Source: Flavobacteriaceae bacterium | GTDB lineage: Bacteria; Bacteroidota; Bacteroidia; Flavobacteriales; Flavobacteriaceae | Length of the DNA stretch: 64,000 nt | Direction of reading: 5' to 3' | Assembly (NCBI GenBank): GCA_009886625.1 | Contig: QXZA01000005.1 | Location: forward strand, 1 to 64,000 | Shown: positions 152-4,882 of the stretch, in pieces | Numbering within the stretch: position 1 is the first letter of the stretch | How the letters are laid out: every line of letters begins with the position of its first letter | Notes under the pieces: model-generated | Told to the model about the DNA's origin: nothing | Databases searched by the model: none | What the model saw: the letters and a program-made list of their open reading frames with translations, nothing else | Made by a program: the position numbers and the translations under genes

Positions 152-607
152 TTATGAAAACCCAGTCCAAATATTTGTGCTCATTCCAAACCAAAAAAGA
201 TCGAGTTTTCCATCCTTATTAATATCATATGTAATTGCATTAAAATTACTAAGCTCGTTACCAGTTATATTTCTGAGATAAATAGCTTCTTCAAGACTAA
301 TATATCTCTTAAAAGTATTTGTTAAACTAAAGTATCTTATGGTTTCATTTATTTGAGAATACCGTTCAGCTGCAGATACAAAGTCTTTAATTTCAAATAA
401 CGATTGAATTGTTAAATTAGAATTTAGGATTATTGTAATAGTTGATTCATTGTTTGAATTTCCTTCCCATCCAACAAACTCATTCCCATCATCAGGAGTG
501 GCAGTTATAGTTACTTCTGTTCCTTCATCAAACGTTCCTCCCTCTGTAGAAACTGTTCCTCCTTCCCCTGCAGTAACTGTCAGCGTATATTGAGTGGGAG
601 CTGGTGG
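152..607 (-). pseudogene. 3' fragment of an InlB B-repeat-type surface protein
   Basis: On the minus strand an open frame without a start codon runs from an in-frame stop at 608-610 to a TAA at 152-154. It begins with a proline-rich linker (PPAPTQ), followed by YTLTVTAGEGGTVS and a segment ending FVGWEG. That is the pattern of the divergent InlB B-repeat (List-Bact/Flg_new) domain found in large secreted proteins of Bacteroidota. About 80 further residues follow, with an EF-hand-like NKDGKLDLFW near the C-terminus, reminiscent of FG-GAP/VCBS repeats. The 5' part is missing and the frame stops where an AraC fragment begins on the other strand, so this looks like a rearrangement remnant. Domain recognition is from the visible motif only. 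Confidence 0.6.
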
Positions 608-789
608 TTACTGCACAGGACTATATCCAGTCTAAAGTTATTAATGTCGCGAAGGAACGCATTTTTGATGACAGTAAATCCATCGGTGAAATTGCGTATG
701 AACTGGGGTTTAATTATCCACAACACTTTACGCTATTGTTCAAACATAAAGTTGGTGTGAGTCCGAAAGAGTATAGAAGTTTAAACTAA
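604..789 (+). pseudogene. AraC-family regulator, C-terminal HTH fragment
   Basis: About 60 residues match the second helix-turn-helix of AraC/XylS regulators: SIGEIAYELGFNYPQHFTLL followed by FKHKVGVSPKEYR at the end. A complete AraC regulator has a sensor domain and a first HTH upstream (typically 250-300 residues in total), and neither is present here. The frame enters from antisense InlB-repeat sequence at about 600-607, and the nominal GTG at 604 is not preceded by a plausible start region. I read it as a 3' remnant joined to the neighbouring fragment by a deletion or inversion. Confidence 0.7.
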
Positions 790-791
790 GT

Positions 792-827
792 CAGATTGTT
801 TTACATGATGTTGCGGATTTTTTTATT
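792..827. repeat. 36-bp repeated element, copy A
   Basis: The sequence starting CAGATTGTTTTACATGATG recurs at 2031-2066 with two mismatches over 36 positions (T/C at the 18th, G/T at the 25th base). This copy begins two bases after the stop of the AraC fragment. The two copies flank a 1.2-kb block containing two orphan genes and a gene fragment. Function unknown; it may be a recombination boundary or part of a duplicated upstream region. Confidence 0.75.
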
Positions 828-884: not shown

Positions 885-906
885 TATTATTAACCATAAA
901 TCAATT
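885..906 (+). repeat. Shared 5' leader motif, copy 1
   Basis: This 22-bp stretch contains TATTAACCATAAATCAATT and is identical to copies at 2238-2259 and 3039-3060; diverged relatives lie at about 4043 and 4612. In each of the three exact copies an ATG follows within 3-4 bases, so the element sits where the 5' untranslated leader and ribosome-binding region should be. Upstream of copies 1 and 2 a further stretch (about 838-884 and 2186-2237) is also similar, which points to duplication of a whole leader region. Confidence 0.75.
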
Positions 907-910
907 TTGT

Positions 911-1546
911 ATGAAGACTAATTCAATATTAATAAGTGAAAAAAGAAAAGTTTTTAAATTAAACACATCATCTCAAAAAGTAGAATGGGATATTTCTTTT
1001 GAACATAAAATAGCTGGAATCTCAAGAGTCAATGAATATGTGTTTATTTCCACAGTTAATAATTGGGGGAAATACCACACCAGTTTATTAAAGTTTAATA
1101 GTGGAAAACTGCTCTGGACAATAGATAAGATACTTTATTATATCCATGTCCTTGAAGAAACTATTATATATATCGATAGAACCAAAGAGGTAGTTTGTTT
1201 ATTACTAAATAGTGGTGAAGAAAAGTTCAGAGTCAAAATGGATTTCAAATGGTATGAATCTCCAAAAATGGCGCTGATTGAAAATAATATATACCTATTT
1301 TCAATAAAGAGTACTAAAGTTTTAAATCTTAATACTGGAAGCTTATCAGAAGCTAAATTACCGGCAAACATAAATCCTAAGGAATTAACTTTTATATTAG
1401 ATGAGTTTCAAATCGAAATAAACACCTTACCCTCTGGAGATGCAGGTGATGCAATGTTATACGGAATAGGAGCAGGAAATGATGGAGGAGGTTTTAACGC
1501 TGGAGATGCTGGTGGCGGGGGAGATGCTGGTGGCGGGGGAGAATAG
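911..1546 (+). CDS. Hypothetical protein with Gly/Asp-rich C-terminal repeat
   Basis: A protein of 211 residues if started at the ATG at 911. A TTG at 848 would add a hydrophobic N-terminus, but that stretch coincides with the leader motif that is untranslated ahead of two neighbouring genes, so 911 is preferred. No family is recognised. The body is a mixed hydrophilic sequence with NLNTGSLSEAK and VVCLLLNSGEEKFRV; such strand-turn-strand patterns with LNTG/LNSG turns recall PQQ-type beta-propeller blades, but this is weak. The last 35 residues are Gly/Asp/Ala-rich, built partly from a perfect 18-nt tandem repeat. No signal peptide follows the 911 start, unlike the neighbouring shared-leader genes. 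Confidence 0.6.
   Translation: MKTNSILISEKRKVFKLNTSSQKVEWDISFEHKIAGISRVNEYVFISTVNNWGKYHTSLLKFNSGKLLWTIDKILYYIHVLEETIIYIDRTKEVVCLLLNSGEEKFRVKMDFKWYESPKMALIENNIYLFSIKSTKVLNLNTGSLSEAKLPANINPKELTFILDEFQIEINTLPSGDAGDAMLYGIGAGNDGGGFNAGDAGGGGDAGGGGE
1502..1537 (+). repeat. Two perfect 18-bp tandem repeats in coding sequence
   Basis: The unit GGAGATGCTGGTGGCGGG occurs at 1502-1519 and 1520-1537 and a third unit starts (GGAGA) before the stop codon. It encodes GDAGGG units at the C-terminus of the hypothetical protein. The tract is strikingly G-rich against the A+T-rich surroundings and could vary in copy number by slippage. Confidence 0.9.
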
Positions 1547-1571
1547 ATAATACGTGAAATATATCCTTATT

Positions 1572-1832
1572 TCAAACAATTTCAGAATTAAACCCAAAAT
1601 CCAAAGGCACATTAGTATTATGTGAAATACTTTCTACTTTTGGCAATACATAAGGTATCAACTTTATGACAAGTTCTATCCTTTGTTTTGGTTCTAAAGA
1701 GTCTAAGTGTTCTTTAATCTCATCCAGTTCTTTATATATCAAATCTTTTAAAACGGTTCTAATTTCTTTTGTTAGTTTATTTGGTGTTCCTTTCTGTCTT
1801 CCACAGTGTTTTATTCCTGTTGTATTTGCCAT
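1572..1832 (-). CDS. Small protein of the GRxKGTPNK type (DUF5681-like)
   Basis: An 86-residue protein with an N-terminal basic motif CGRQKGTPNKLTKEIR, then a charged helical stretch and RIELVIKLIPYVLPKVES. This arrangement (Gly-Arg-x-Lys-Gly-Thr-Pro-Asn-Lys start, then an ELVIKLIPYVLPK-like helix) is familiar from small orphan proteins of Bacteroidota and from DUF5681-type proteins in phage and mobile contexts; I know of no established function. It ends 22 bases upstream of a fragment read on the same strand, and sits between the two copies of the 36-bp repeat, which fits an accessory or mobile origin. Confidence 0.6.
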   Translation of the reverse strand: MANTTGIKHCGRQKGTPNKLTKEIRTVLKDLIYKELDEIKEHLDSLEPKQRIELVIKLIPYVLPKVESISHNTNVPLDFGFNSEIV

Positions 1833-1853
1833 ACTATTTAATACTATTATAGT

Positions 1854-2030
1854 TTAATGTCCTTGAGGTAATACTAAATCACTATTGCCTTTAGATTTAA
1901 TAAGGGGTAAGCCACGATAATCAGCTATACCCTCATTATAAAGCAATTCCTTAAGATTGTATATATCTGTTAGGTTTTGGTAGAAAGAGTTCGAGATTGG
2001 GAATGTAAGGGGTACTCTAAGAATACGTAA
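1854..2030 (-). pseudogene. 3' fragment of an unrecognised gene
   Basis: On the minus strand a frame of about 57 residues, with stop at 1854-1856, reads like real protein: VPLTFPISNSFYQNL, then LYNEGIADYRGLPLIKSKGN and DLVLPQGH. It has no start codon and, 9 bases beyond 2030, meets an in-frame stop inside the 36-bp repeat, so the coding appearance ends exactly at the repeat boundary. I do not recognise the family. Best read as the tail of a gene cut off by the event that placed the repeat here. Confidence 0.45.
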
Positions 2031-2066
2031 CAGATTGTTTTACATGACGTTGCGTATTTTTTTATT
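2031..2066. repeat. 36-bp repeated element, copy B
   Basis: Second copy of the element at 792-827, starting CAGATTGTTTTACATGACG. Its left edge coincides with the end of the truncated minus-strand gene at 1854-2030. Downstream lies a hairpin (2077-2103) and then a leader region resembling the one after copy A. Confidence 0.75.
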
Positions 2067-2076
2067 TATTGTTGGC

Positions 2077-2103
2077 AACACATTGACAACAAATCAATGT
2101 GTT
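2077..2103. other. Perfect 10-bp inverted repeat, 7-base loop
   Basis: AACACATTGA at 2077-2086 pairs perfectly with TCAATGTGTT at 2094-2103 around the loop CAACAAA. There is no T-tract after the stem, so it does not look like an intrinsic terminator. It stands between the 36-bp repeat and the leader of the next gene, about 160 bases from that gene's ATG; an operator, a transcript-stabilising hairpin or a mobile-element end are all possible. Confidence 0.55.
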
Positions 2104-2237
2104 TCTTGACTATTTAAAAGCTAAAAGTTTCCATCCAGTATTGACCCAAACACATGGACATGGGTTTTAGAAAACGGTTTTCTATTGGAATATGGGATTG
2201 GGATTCGATATGTAATCCATTCTTTCTATCTTAGTGG

Positions 2238-2259
2238 TATTATTAACCATAAATCAATT
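2238..2259 (+). repeat. Shared 5' leader motif, copy 2
   Basis: Identical over 22 bases to the copies at 885 and 3039. The ATG of the next gene (2263) follows after AAA, the same spacing as in copy 3, which supports 2263 rather than an earlier start. Confidence 0.8.
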
Positions 2260-2262
2260 AAA

Positions 2263-2946
2263 ATGAAAAAATTATTTTTTTTAACTTTCCTAATACCTTT
2301 TTTGGGTTTTTCACAACAATTATTCTGGTATGATGTTTTTTTGGAAGTAGAATCAGAAAACGTAAGTGCTGTTGCCACATTAGTTAATGACTTTTACTCA
2401 ACAATTGAAAAACCATCCGACCTTTCCGTTTCCTTTTCAAGAATTCCATTAAAAGGGGAAGACTTTAATGCTACTCATATGATTAGTATGTTTAGCCCCT
2501 CAGCTCAATCACTCGCTGATTTCAGAAACTCTCTTAAAGGAGAAAAATGGGATATATATTCAACCGGTATGAGAGGTAAAGTTGAAAGTATTAGAGCTGA
2601 TGCAGGGAATGTCTTAAGTCATGTTAATCTTGATAAGGTTGGTCCTATAGGTCAAGGATGGACATTCAAGGTTCATTCCAAAGATACAGGTAAGTTTGTG
2701 GCAGCTTTTACTAAATTAATGAAGACATTTAAACCAACAGGGTTTGCTGCTACTGGTCAACTCACTCATGGAACAAGTAACGGTGAAACGATGTTTATTT
2801 ATGCTACATCATCAAATCTAAATGAAGCTTTCACAGGCGGTCCAAAAAACAAAAAGGAAGCTGATGCAATGCAAACTTTTTTCAATGAGATACATTTTGC
2901 AGAGTTTTCTCAAAGCAATACAAGGGTACAGATAACACAGTATTAG
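2263..2946 (+). CDS. Secreted hypothetical protein, possible tandem alpha/beta-barrel (ABM-like) fold
   Basis: Started at 2263 it is 227 residues with a clean Sec signal peptide (MKKLFFLTFLIPFLGFSQ, cleavage near residue 17-18). An upstream in-frame start at 2185 would place the signal peptide internally and translate the shared leader, so it is rejected. The mature part has two similar halves, each with a hydrophobic strand, a helix and a short strand (WYDVFLEVESENVSA... and WTFKVHSKDTGKF...). This is suggestive of duplicated ferredoxin-like domains as in dimeric alpha/beta-barrel proteins, but no known motif is conserved. Followed by a strong terminator, so probably monocistronic. Function unknown. 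Confidence 0.65.
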   Translation: MKKLFFLTFLIPFLGFSQQLFWYDVFLEVESENVSAVATLVNDFYSTIEKPSDLSVSFSRIPLKGEDFNATHMISMFSPSAQSLADFRNSLKGEKWDIYSTGMRGKVESIRADAGNVLSHVNLDKVGPIGQGWTFKVHSKDTGKFVAAFTKLMKTFKPTGFAATGQLTHGTSNGETMFIYATSSNLNEAFTGGPKNKKEADAMQTFFNEIHFAEFSQSNTRVQITQY

Positions 2947-2974
2947 AAAAATGTTTTTTAAAATAATAGAAATT

Positions 2975-2997
2975 CCCTCCCATGCGGAGGGTTTTTT
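2975..2997 (+). terminator. Intrinsic terminator
   Basis: CCCTCC at 2975-2980 pairs with GGAGGG at 2986-2991 around the loop CATGC, followed by six T. It ends the secreted-protein gene at 2263-2946. It is nearly the same hairpin as the terminator at 3992, so the gene unit and its terminator seem to have been duplicated together. Confidence 0.85.
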
Positions 2998-3038
2998 ATG
3001 ATGATTTGGAAATTCTTTCCAAAAACATTAAATTCAAA

Positions 3039-3060
3039 TATTATTAACCATAAATCAATT
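3039..3060 (+). repeat. Shared 5' leader motif, copy 3
   Basis: Third exact copy of the 22-bp leader, again followed by AAA and an ATG (3064). It lies 42 bases after the T-tract of the preceding terminator, so a promoter must lie within or just upstream of it. Confidence 0.8.
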
Positions 3061-3063
3061 AAA

Positions 3064-3984
3064 ATGAAGAAACTATTATTTTTCCTAATCTTATTTCCTG
3101 CAACCATTATTGCCCAAAAGAATAATAATGGAAAAGTTTATGATAAACATCCTGCACTTGATATAGCTGAAAAATTTGGGCAAGCATGGATAAGCGGTGA
3201 CACTGAAACGCTAAAGAGTTTAGTAGGAGAAGATTTCCGTATGGGAAGTGCCATGAATACAAATCCCAATTATGAGGGAGGAGATATAAACAATCTTTTA
3301 GGTCAGTCCTCATGGATGTCCAAAAATTTCATTAATATATCACTTAAAAATAAAGGTCAAGCGTATCCCGATGCTATTGAATATAAAAGATCAGGTCTTT
3401 TTGTTCAGACTTTCCAGGAATTTATTGCTTGGGATAAAAACAATGGTTTTAAAATAAAAACTCCTTTCAATGCTGTTTTTGTTTTTGATAAAAAAGGGGA
3501 AAAAATCATGCGTTTTTGGTGGGCTGATAACAGAGCAATTTGGCAAAAATGGAATTTATCAAGGCAAACTATTAAAAATGGAACTATATACAAGGATCAT
3601 CCGTATATAGGTAAGGTTCGTCAAATTTGGTATAACCTGGCACAAGGTAATCTTGATAAAGTTTGGAAAGATTTTTCACCAAATGCCAGAGTAAATGATT
3701 CGAATTCAATTGATCAAAACTCAAAGAGTCTGAAGGATCACCAAAACTATGTGGGTGAAGTATTTAGCAAATTTGAGTTTGTTTCAATAGATGAAGTTGG
3801 ATATCCAGACTTCATAGACTACGAGGGTGATGGTGGGGTTGTATTATCATGGTATAATATGACTGTAAAAAGCATAAAGACTAAAAAAAATATCATATTA
3901 AAATTTCATTCACAGCATGACTTTGATGAAGAAGGAATGATTGTTTTAGAAACATTATATTACAACGATCGTTTATTAGAATAA
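3064..3984 (+). CDS. Secreted protein with two SnoaL/NTF2-like domains
   Basis: 306 residues from the ATG at 3064, with signal peptide MKKLLFFLILFPATIIAQ. The mature protein has two similar halves: HPALDIAEKFGQAWISGDTE and, about 145 residues later, HPYIGKVRQIWYNLAQGNLD. Each opens with the helix-plus-short-loop pattern of SnoaL/NTF2-like folds (W-x-x-GD or GN, then a strand with F.P.ARV). SnoaL-like proteins are small-molecule isomerases, hydrolases or binding proteins; the substrate cannot be told here. The N-terminal stretch from 2998 is leader and terminator sequence rather than protein. Ends in its own terminator; expected in the periplasm. Confidence 0.7.
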   Translation: MKKLLFFLILFPATIIAQKNNNGKVYDKHPALDIAEKFGQAWISGDTETLKSLVGEDFRMGSAMNTNPNYEGGDINNLLGQSSWMSKNFINISLKNKGQAYPDAIEYKRSGLFVQTFQEFIAWDKNNGFKIKTPFNAVFVFDKKGEKIMRFWWADNRAIWQKWNLSRQTIKNGTIYKDHPYIGKVRQIWYNLAQGNLDKVWKDFSPNARVNDSNSIDQNSKSLKDHQNYVGEVFSKFEFVSIDEVGYPDFIDYEGDGGVVLSWYNMTVKSIKTKKNIILKFHSQHDFDEEGMIVLETLYYNDRLLE

Positions 3985-3991
3985 ATATTTA

Positions 3992-4017
3992 CCCTCCCAT
4001 GTGGGGGGTTTTCTTTT
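3992..4017 (+). terminator. Intrinsic terminator
   Basis: CCCTCC (3992-3997), loop CATGT, GGGGGG (4003-4008; one T-G wobble), then TTTTCTTTT. It is a close relative of the terminator at 2975-2997. Confidence 0.85.
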
Positions 4018-4042
4018 AAACAGATTATCTCCTTTATGGGTG

Positions 4043-4062
4043 TTATTATCATAAATTAATTT
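4043..4062 (+). repeat. Shared 5' leader motif, diverged copy 4
   Basis: TTATTATCATAAATTAATTT resembles the exact leader copies (TTATTAACCATAAATCAATT) with several changes, and again lies just ahead of an ATG (4071) of a small exported protein. Confidence 0.45.
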
Positions 4063-4070
4063 AAAATTCA

Positions 4071-4541
4071 ATGAGACCAGTTAAATCAATATCAATGTTG
4101 TTTGCTCTTTTATTTACAATAATCAGTTGTAAAAATGCAATCCATAAAGACTCGATTGTTATTAAAAATGATGATTCAAACGAGTTAACATTTATTTTAG
4201 AGATGAATACAAAAAACAATCTGAAGGCTGAAGTAGAGGATTTCACTCAGTATCTATCTGATTTCATAGTGGAGAGAGAACCTTCAACTATTTACGGATA
4301 CTACCTTTCAGAAGATGGAAAGAAAGTAACACTAATTGAAAAATACAACAATAGTTTAGACGGGATCAAGCACGGCAAAGAATTTATTAATGGTCCAAAT
4401 TTTGAAAATTTCTTCAAATTTTTTGAGATAGAAACATTTATTGTTTTAGGAAAAGCATCTGATGAGTTCAAGAATTTTTGTGCAGAAAATGGATTTGTAA
4501 TAGATTATAGAGAATCCATTGGAGGGTATATTAGAAAATAA
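4071..4541 (+). CDS. Lipoprotein with ABM-like (antibiotic biosynthesis monooxygenase) domain
   Basis: 156 residues. The N-terminus MRPVKSISMLFALLFTIISC is a lipoprotein signal with the lipidated Cys at residue 20. The body matches the ABM/dimeric alpha-beta barrel pattern: a helix ending FIVEREPSTIYGYYLSEDGK, then KVTLIEKYNN (strand carrying the acidic residue), a second helix and FFEIETFIVLGKAS. ABM proteins are cofactor-free monooxygenases or small-molecule-binding dimers; the substrate is unknown. Third consecutive exported small protein behind a leader of the same type. About 340 bases without a clear gene follow. Confidence 0.7.
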   Translation: MRPVKSISMLFALLFTIISCKNAIHKDSIVIKNDDSNELTFILEMNTKNNLKAEVEDFTQYLSDFIVEREPSTIYGYYLSEDGKKVTLIEKYNNSLDGIKHGKEFINGPNFENFFKFFEIETFIVLGKASDEFKNFCAENGFVIDYRESIGGYIRK

Positions 4542-4882
4542 AAAAACCTCAGGCATATTTTTCTCAGTAAGCTTTTGGACTTTGGATTGTATAGGAAACT
4601 TATTTTAATGCATTATTAAACCATAAATCATTTTAAATTCTAAGTTTTCTTCAAAATTGTAAAACGACTTAACGAGATCGACCCAATTAGAATTTTAGTT
4701 TAACTCTGAAATCAAATTTTCATGTTCCCTCTTCTTTTTTGAGACCAATTTAGAAGAGCCTTTAGCGTTTTCTCAAATGATAAGGTCTTATTCGATGATG
4801 CTAAGCAAAAAATTGCATTTATTTTTTTCAGCTATGTACTGTTAGGATACTAAGATAAACAAAAGGTTTATATCTTTGATAG
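4542..4882. other. Intergenic region with a decayed leader copy
   Basis: No gene is evident. At 4612-4640 the sequence ATTATTAAACCATAAATCAT and following bases is a recognisable but altered copy of the shared leader, yet no open frame follows it. It is probably the remains of a fourth or fifth member of the array whose coding part was lost. The rest, up to the -7 box at 4871, is A+T-rich with no motif I can name. Confidence 0.5.
4871..4878 (+). promoter_or_regulatory. Candidate -7 box TATCTTTG
   Basis: Matches the Bacteroidota -7 consensus TAnnTTTG. It lies only four bases before the ATG at 4883, so a transcript from it would be leaderless or nearly so. No convincing -33 TTG was seen at the expected distance. 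Confidence 0.4.

Follow-up and report, generated by a model that had tools for sequence, protein, structure and literature searches.

Why do several genes with different coding parts share one short sequence directly ahead of their start codons? The question is raised by a locus in the window, i.e. the whole 64,000-nucleotide stretch of a Flavobacteriaceae genome analysed here. A first-pass annotation had placed exact copies of a 22-mer at 885, 2238 and 3039, each just ahead of an ATG, and this was borne out: TATTAACCATAAATCAATT is exact at 888, 2241 and 3042, and the copies directly precede ATGs at 911, 2263 and 3064 (Table 1). Allowing up to three mismatches, TATTAACCATAAATCAATT has no further match in the window (shuffle mean 0.20). 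A leader HMM trained on 120 leaders from other loci and then run on the window recovered the three copies. The two altered copies claimed at 4043 and 4612 are both weak: the second scored only E 0.11, and the first, in which a one-base deletion is seen by eye, was missed at E<=1. The TTCG and TATCTTAG elements ahead of copy 2 are likened here to the Bacteroidetes -33/-7 consensus, and we take them to be a putative promoter.

Table 1. Features of the locus, in window positions.
Feature	Position	Strand	Evidence
AraC-family regulator, C-terminal fragment (PF12833), at upstream edge	604..789	+	E 3e-13
36-bp block after stop codon, direct repeat of 2031-2066	792..827	+	94% identity
Leader copy 1	885..906	+	leader HMM E 8e-5
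Cargo gene 1, 211 aa, weak beta-propeller similarity, without exported-type N-terminus	911..1546	+	sequence
Small ORF, part weakly like type D block of other arrays	1572..1832	-	blastp-short E 0.005, 20 residues
36-bp block, second copy	2031..2066	+	94% identity to 792-827
3' end of HUH Rep element (type A block): last rep codons, hairpin stretch, promoter-like part	2111..2240	+	
Promoter-like TTCG-19 bp-TATCTTAG	2204..2234	+	sequence, inference
Leader copy 2	2238..2259	+	leader HMM E 6e-10
Cargo gene 2, exported tandem ABM-like (alpha+beta barrel) protein, 227 aa	2263..2946	+	
Terminator CCCTCCCATGCGGAGGGTTTT	2975..2995	+	
Leader copy 3	3039..3060	+	leader HMM E 2.5e-7
Cargo gene 3, exported tandem SnoaL-like protein, 306 aa	3064..3984	+	Pfam sub-threshold
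Terminator CCCTCCCATGTGGGGGGTTTT, 1 mismatch	3992..4012	+	
Altered leader, one base deleted (weak)	4043..4062	+	sequence; missed by leader HMM at E<=1
Cargo gene 4, lipoprotein, 156 aa	4071..4541	+	
Degenerate recombinase-3'-end (att) site directly 3' of gene 4 stop codon	4544..4579	+	E 0.029, 10.3 bits
Decayed leader without gene	4604..4638	+	leader HMM E 0.11; 3 mismatches at 4616-4633

The products behind copies 2-4 were described as exported, and their sequences agree, with signal-peptide-like N-termini in cargo genes 2 and 3 and a lipobox-like one in gene 4. The tandem ABM-like fold proposed for gene 2 is upheld by a structure model (pLDDT 89.5) with 2pgc as best Foldseek match (E 6e-9), followed by anthrone-oxidase-like and then monooxygenase entries; a Pfam search of this gene gave nothing at E<=1. 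For gene 3, the SnoaL-like identity stands on a PF12680 match that lies below the threshold (E 0.016). The near-identical terminators behind genes 2 and 3 were confirmed, and this terminator type has 23 matches at 17 places genome-wide (reversed control 0). Leader, terminator and cargo type do recur jointly while the coding parts differ, and the leader marks a limited gene set. Own genome included, matches to cargo genes 2, 3 and 4 were found in 22, 24 and 15 of 38 genomes of the genus, respectively.

The source genome holds 49 matches to the leader, compared with 8 in the reversed control; 30 of the 46 examined are followed by an ORF of 50 aa or more, and the N-terminus is hydrophobic in 25 of these 30. 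A common leader before hundreds of unrelated flavobacterial genes, the case named beforehand as refuting a special role, is absent from the genomes searched: the leader is present in 24/25 genomes of the genus and in 0/15 from other families, and is therefore no general flavobacterial leader. Like the flavobacterial translation starts without a Shine-Dalgarno sequence described in PMC6847099, it is an SD-less stretch ahead of ATG; unlike them, it is a conserved sequence of 18-24 nt found in this genus only among the 40 genomes searched.

Many leader genes of the genus sit in tandem arrays of one-gene units. The arrays contain a directly repeated, conserved site with a consensus of about 35 bp and no clear palindrome by eye. 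It is typically found at a gene's stop codon and precedes the following ATG by about 70 or 92 bp; on the opposite strand, it reads as the 3' end of a gene for a tyrosine recombinase. This anatomy was read directly from 124 strong sites in 47 loci selected for carrying leaders or sites. A same-strand ORF ends within 60 bp upstream of 70 sites (random mean 7.6, maximum 13), exactly 6 bp before the core in 28 of them, and no such end occurs at the other 54. An ORF starts within 170 bp at 78/124 sites (random mean 33.8, maximum 42), including 27 starts at 69-71 bp and 14 at 90-96 bp, and 46/124 have both an ORF end and an ORF start (random mean 2.75, maximum 6). Neighbouring sites within 4 kb are co-oriented in 83/86 pairs, with a median spacing of 891 bp, and the longest ORF runs in sense in 74/83 site-to-site units; this is the integron-type arrangement of tandem single-gene cassettes in one orientation with one site each.

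All 46 members of the recombinase family possess a Phage_integrase domain (PF00589). The recombinase model (pLDDT 90.5) has Z scores of 16.0-16.4 to XerA, Tn1549 Int and IntI4, and the fold comparison puts XerA, Tn1549 Int, IntI4, HP1, Cre and lambda Int in a single band, within which no closer subfamily is assignable. The self-repeat test covered 47 recombinase loci from marine Bacteroidota with an intact 3' end and at least 400 bp downstream. The gene's own 3' end is repeated downstream in 19 loci and not in 28; among the 19, the own end is the best match among 43-54 other ends in 12 (3 tied), and another lineage's end fits better in 7. A relative in Flavobacterium ammonificans GENT11 has no downstream repeat. 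The last 13 recombinase codons are constrained at the DNA level: the same codon is kept in 133/146 comparisons there, in 123/185 for the preceding 13 codons and in 1255/2483 for all earlier ones. In the first interval next to each of the 19, the longest ORF is directed at the recombinase in 10 cases and co-directional with it in 7; 2 intervals lack one. In the arrays read out, the cassettes point towards the recombinase and the site lies within the 3' end of its gene. Carriage of the recombinase by plasmids or phages was rejected, with 1 weak plasmid record, 2 weak phage records from one phage, and 0/72 stretches confirmed in a viral-contig scan.

Exchange of cassette-sized, recombinase-free stretches that end at sites was observed between species. 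In total, arrays of different genomes have 44 stretches in common (at least 300 bp, at least 80% identity), which are not mutually independent. A locus edge truncates some of their ends; of the 84 intact ones, 42 are within 60 bp of a site and a further 17 are at a leader alone. Randomly placed ends hit a site in 10.8/88 (maximum 20, 500 draws), so that shared stretches terminate at sites at about four times the random rate. Both ends are at sites in 13 of the 44, and of the four best cassette pairs just one has both clean. The 17 ends at a leader alone make it probable that homologous exchange also occurs. Of five candidate gaps for a clean presence or absence of a single cassette at one place, G018/G010 was read out and is not a clean insertion.

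We propose, at a probability of roughly 0.7, that this uncultured marine Flavobacteriaceae genus possesses a separate integron-like system of one-gene cassettes, distinct in both recombinase and site. On this reading, the motif makes up the greater part of a short 5' untranslated leader, and many of the genes with this leader are one-gene cassettes that would move between, and accumulate in, islands of the genus. The best-preserved islands show the cassette order: ~35-bp site, promoter and leader, one gene (usually for an exported protein), stop codon, next site. Since the recombinase gene ends with this site, its last codons probably double as a docking (attI-like) site, at which, as at the other sites, the recombinase would insert and excise circular cassettes. 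Because the genus arrays read towards the recombinase, a promoter within its gene could not serve the cassettes; each cassette would carry its own promoter, which would keep the leader common. From the sequence patterns we infer the agency of this particular recombinase, the circular intermediates and the expression of the cassettes. The first-pass reading of the locus as an expanded expression cassette is unsupported in the sense of local duplication; the evidence favours one-gene cassettes being exchanged between sites, each with the leader at its 5' end. A wider version is only slightly favoured: marine Bacteroidota would hold a capture platform independent of integrons, in which a tyrosine recombinase docks circular, promoter-bearing one-gene cassettes at the 3' end of its own gene, with exported-protein arrays across the genus and a site sequence specific to each lineage.

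The leader could instead be a genus-specific regulatory or translation leader of an exported accessory-protein regulon, spread by duplication and leader-to-leader homologous recombination, with the sites incidental. The prevalence of hydrophobic N-termini and the shared ends at leaders alone agree with this, as does the finding that the leader is broader than the site and not exclusive to site-bounded cassettes: in 28 leader loci sampled from relatives, a site lies within 200 bp upstream in 7 and is missing there in 21, and any site at all is present in 10. SnoaL homologues with 38-40% identity still carry the leader in the site-free loci L219-L226. We nevertheless regard a regulon as unlikely, given the fixed distances between sites and leader-gene starts and the excess of shared-stretch ends at sites over random. 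Leaders without a site also have another repeated block upstream (Rep end, palindrome or type D) in 12/21 cases in the own genome and 5/21 in relatives.

Equally doubtful is the view of the arrays as graveyards, in which each site is the relic of its own integrated element, of a satellite or prophage-like kind, that has lost its recombinase, with no capture now. It would account for the sites that flank some recombinases on both sides, and for the state of the genes: of the genus's 18 matches to the recombinase end, just 5 are within frames of 348-365 aa, the others being short or with stops, and the window's own genome has no match to the recombinase query, only 3'-end remnants. Against it stand the single site consensus with its fixed spacing to genes, the recombinase-free stretches bounded by sites in different species, and two intact recombinases of the genus with arrays of 5 and 6 repeats, a third recombinase end having 7.

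Ordinary integrons, with IntI and attC cassettes, are reported in Bacteroidota (PMC8618304) and would share the tandem one-gene cassettes, the tyrosine recombinase and a site at its gene, but they are very improbable here, since three recombinases score 24-28 bits against the TIGR02249 cut-off of 265, the site cores fold no better than chance, and the cassettes, in the arrays read out, point towards a recombinase gene whose 3' end contains the site. Descent from an integron was likewise rejected, given that score and the site folding. Where the IntI-specific insertion in the catalytic domain was looked for, the TIGR02249-matched stretches stop at about model position 175-179, and another protein's begins at 245, with about 24 residues between (pieced together); a scan of the own genome with this model gave nothing above the cut-off. 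Imperfect hairpins of the attC type are not seen in the 123 site cores folded, which have a mean z of -0.11 (4% below -2), and 59 extended sites show no special folding (mean z 0.19). Type B and D blocks were examined as possible further att families: folding is strong in 3/10 copies of type B (z -2.7 to -4.8), all in locus L086, the other 7 being not below -1.3, and in 1/16 copies of type D (z -2.8).

Modular gene capture in bacteria is usually exemplified by integrons. The proposed system resembles chromosomal integrons (IntI, attI, attC) in having a tyrosine recombinase by a tandem, mostly single-gene, co-oriented array with one site per cassette and turnover between species. It differs in that the curated model does not class the recombinase as IntI, the site core, short and unstructured, equals the recombinase gene's 3' end, and the genus cassettes face the recombinase and bear their own promoter-like part and leader. 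If it is real, a second system with a different recombinase and kind of site would mean that cassette capture arose more than once, and would help to account for the turnover of accessory exported proteins in small-genome marine flavobacteria. A recombinase 3' end repeated downstream would be a searchable mark for cassettes that attC-based programs may miss. The dif modules of Acinetobacter, described in PMC6449649, are likewise genes bounded by short recombination sites and carried between replicons, but their 28-bp XerC/XerD pdif sites have inner inverted repeats and lie in inverse orientation; the sites here are direct repeats of about 35 bp that would belong to a dedicated recombinase, and the co-orientation of neighbouring pairs is the opposite of what dif modules require. 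A literature search found nothing describing such a system; its coverage, without preprints and most subscription journals, makes this weak evidence of novelty.

The window itself is a decayed or mixed island: it retains a single degenerate site and a single Rep-element end, and its leaders have outlasted their sites. Its best-scoring site match is the weak one behind gene 4. Homologues of the SnoaL-like gene lie between two att sites in 3/20 loci, and a site is found just upstream in 4/20 loci of the ABM-like gene and 1/15 of the lipoprotein gene. No PADLOC match to defence cargo was obtained among 8 proteins. Elsewhere, G007 and G022 have in common a flank and a recombinase 3' end at an rseP-like gene. 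The type A block ahead of leader copy 2 corresponds to the stretch at and downstream of a Rep gene 3' end and matches 20/30 rep loci, the 14 strongest at 76-85% identity and most starting at about 2111. A small Rep gene end with a hairpin stretch is reminiscent of one-ended HUH Rep or IS91-ISCR-like elements; this Rep differs in having just ~122-139 aa and a weak PF23343 match (E 3e-4, below the cut-off). In about half of the rep copies read, the hairpin stretch is followed by the same promoter-like block.

Three exact copies of a 19-mer leader, TATTAACCATAAATCAATT, directly precede ATGs in the window, as the first-pass annotation had noted, against 0.2 expected from shuffled sequence with up to three mismatches. 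The altered copies proposed alongside them are weak (see table), and of the claims about the cargo some parts stood. Judged by sequence, export-type N-termini are present in the genes at 2263, 3064 and 4071 and absent from the gene at 911; the tandem ABM-like fold is backed by a structural model, and the SnoaL match falls below threshold. The terminators were borne out, with 23 matches of their type spread over 17 genomic locations (control 0).

Features of the window bearing on its interpretation
Feature	Position	E-value	Remark
Truncated AraC-type regulator	604-789		at island edge
Leader 1, exact	888		directly precedes ATG
ORF weakly resembled by the type D ORF	1572-1832
Region matching Rep-element ends	2111-2240		upstream of leader 2
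Leader 2, exact	2241		directly precedes ATG
Leader 3, exact	3042		directly precedes ATG
Altered leader	4043		missed by leader HMM at E<=1
Degenerate site, best in the window	4544-4579	0.029	directly behind lipoprotein stop codon, ahead of gene-less leader
Altered leader	4604-4638	0.11

In the genome of the window (1.91 Mb, 30 contigs, 91.65% complete), an 18-mer of the leader has 49 matches with up to three mismatches, versus 8 for the reversed pattern, and these are clustered and frequently close to contig ends. Of the 46 matches included in the downstream check, 30 are followed by an ORF of 50 aa or more; a hydrophobic N-terminus was found in 25 of these 30 genes and a recurrent upstream block or terminator at 24. 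Across relatives, a 24-mer including the ATG (up to two mismatches) occurs in 24 of 25 genus genomes, the window's own included, and in none of 15 genomes from other families of the order.

A second repeat, the site, lies between genes (consensus TTAAATCATCGGCATATCCTCTTCATTAAGTTCAGG); its 23-bp core, with up to three mismatches, was detected in 21/25 genus genomes and in 0/15 others. A profile built from 112 copies gave 158 matches (E<=1) across 47 loci, every one of which was picked because it carries leaders or sites, and the 124 matches at E<=1e-4 were treated as strong sites. A same-strand ORF (at least 50 aa) ends within 60 bp upstream of 70 strong sites (random mean 7.6, maximum 13), in 28 cases exactly 6 bp ahead of the core. 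An ORF start lies within 170 bp of 78 (random mean 33.8, maximum 42), at a distance of 69-71 bp in 27 and 90-96 bp in 14, and 46 of the 124 have both (random mean 2.75, maximum 6). Neighbouring sites up to 4 kb apart share their orientation in 83 of 86 pairs, with a median spacing of 891 bp, and the longest ORF of the 83 site-to-site units is sense in 74, antisense in 8 and absent in one. The clearest array of such one-gene cassettes is on contig C45 of genome G049 (AG-325-O11). In another genome a run of N adjoins a site (G000:C11, ~48065); since assembly breaks at the repeats, array size may be underestimated. The leader is distinct from the site, which lies within 200 bp upstream in 7 of 28 leader loci from relatives and anywhere within the locus in 10; among the 21 without an upstream site, pattern searches found a Rep-end or palindrome block in 5 and a terminator in 2, and several more carry decayed Rep-end sequence by eye.

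Read on the other strand, the site is the C-terminus of a tyrosine recombinase (ending LTYLRGLEIPELNEEDMPMI before the stop). A C-terminal query matched 18 places in 15 of 38 genus genomes, with frames of 348-365 aa in five (G049, G045, G022, G018, G016); it was unmatched in the window's own genome, where 3'-end remnants alone are seen. PF00589 matches all 46 aligned members, and the modelled fold resembles XerA, Tn1549 Int and IntI4 (Z 16.0-16.4; pLDDT 90.5). Five genus copies, at 50-58% identity to the first, have a near-invariant C-terminus. Among six recombinases sharing this end, identical residues use identical codons in 133/146 comparisons over the last 13 codons, 123/185 over the preceding 13 and 1255/2483 over all codons before the last 13, the pairs not being independent. 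At the level of sequence, the recombinase 3' end is the site and not a protein tail alone, with constraint acting on the DNA.

A scan with one genome per species gave at least 80 loci of recombinase relatives; among these matches, most are MAGs and SAGs of marine Bacteroidota, and a few entries come from Pedobacter, Mucilaginibacter and fresh water. Of 70 loci used, 55 have an intact end, 47 of them with at least 400 bp downstream. The recombinase's own 3' end is repeated downstream in 19 of the 47 (threshold 10 of 39 mismatches; shuffles never below 11); no such repeat was found in 28, which may be empty. Compared with 43-54 other ends, the own end fits best in 12 of the 19 (three tied) and another recombinase's end fits better in 7; sites differ with recombinase family (e.g. 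loci L165, L141, L177). Within the first interval of these 19 loci, 10 have their longest ORF facing the recombinase, 7 have it running in the same direction and 2 have none, so the facing arrangement belongs to the arrays of this genus and is not general. In other families (L141, L177 and L186) the recombinase-to-repeat stretch holds larger ORFs (up to 726 aa) on the recombinase's strand; these could be integrative elements of greater size that follow the same docking rule.

Arrays of different genomes have 44 stretches in common (at least 300 bp, at least 80% identity), which are not independent. Among the 84 ends free of locus-edge cuts, 42 have a site no more than 60 bp away in at least one of the two genomes, and a further 17 coincide with a leader alone; 13 of the 44 stretches are bounded by sites on either side. 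For random ends, the mean number at a site was 10.8 of 88 (maximum 20, 500 draws). Among the four best pairs compared base by base, a single cassette with 89-90% identity (G018 C2:187163-188185 versus G022 C4:14019-15041) is alone clean at both ends, with homology from ~30 bp before one core to just past the next and unrelated flanks. The stretch shared by G018 and G010 is longer, and G018/G049 and G049/G010 break at the leader on one side, from which homologous exchange within the leader is probable as well. Beside a gene we take to be rseP-like, G007:C33 and G022:C12 occupy a common chromosomal place with apparently different cassettes; the flank is 72% and the recombinase 3' end 83% identical, and the stretch lying between the two has no long DNA match.

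Fixed anatomy and orientation, self-matching sites, DNA-level constraint and cassette-sized shared stretches ending at sites are thereby documented in the sequences. The recombinase would take in circular cassettes, with the 3' end of its own gene as the insertion point, and would excise them from the array. Every cassette would supply its own promoter and leader, since no promoter from the recombinase can serve cassettes that point towards it; the promoter part would fit the Bacteroidetes -33/-7 consensus. The system resembles integrons in its array, one site per gene and a site at a tyrosine-recombinase gene, but differs in two tested defining features, IntI and attC folding: three recombinases reach 24-28 bits with the integron-integrase model (cut-off 265), and site cores fold no more than chance. 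With dif modules it shares short sites, whereas those modules use XerC/D and inverse site pairs (PMC6449649). No description of this cassette system was found in the literature searched, a scope without preprints and most subscription papers.

The window genes are homologues of cassette cargo. The SnoaL gene has matches in 24/38 genus genomes, its own included, and lies between two sites in 3/20 loci (G004, G051, G010); the ABM gene (22/38) has a site just upstream in 4/20 and the lipoprotein gene (15/38) in 1/15. The window occupies the first part of its contig. In 20 of 30 rep loci, the region 3' of the small HUH Rep gene matches the stretch ahead of leader 2; identity reaches 76-85% in the 14 strongest matches, and most begin at the last rep codons. 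With this Rep-element end and a degenerate site, we read the window as an island that is decayed or mixed rather than as a clean array.

The HUH Rep-like family (L263-L292) occurs in 17/38 genus genomes, with up to 8 matches per genome and full-length copies of 122-139 aa. The rep ends may be comparable to those of ISCR elements. Among 22 of them, the type A hairpin pattern was seen at 10 and the exact leader pattern at 3 within 230 bp. Two further blocks recur upstream of leaders. Type B is a ~115-bp imperfect palindrome (ACACCAATGCCCCCAATCC..TGGTTTTAGGGGGGAGTTGTTTGGGG; G000:C6, C20, C29 and C4, and G003:C9, locus L086). Of its 10 copies, 3 fold into a strong hairpin (z -2.7 to -4.8, all in L086), and the block may represent a third type of mobile end. 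Type D (L032, L089, L126, L127 and others) is the end of a small ORF (terminating in LPRMKQATNEVSEDLPLFIE) and perhaps another mobile-gene 3' end serving as boundary.
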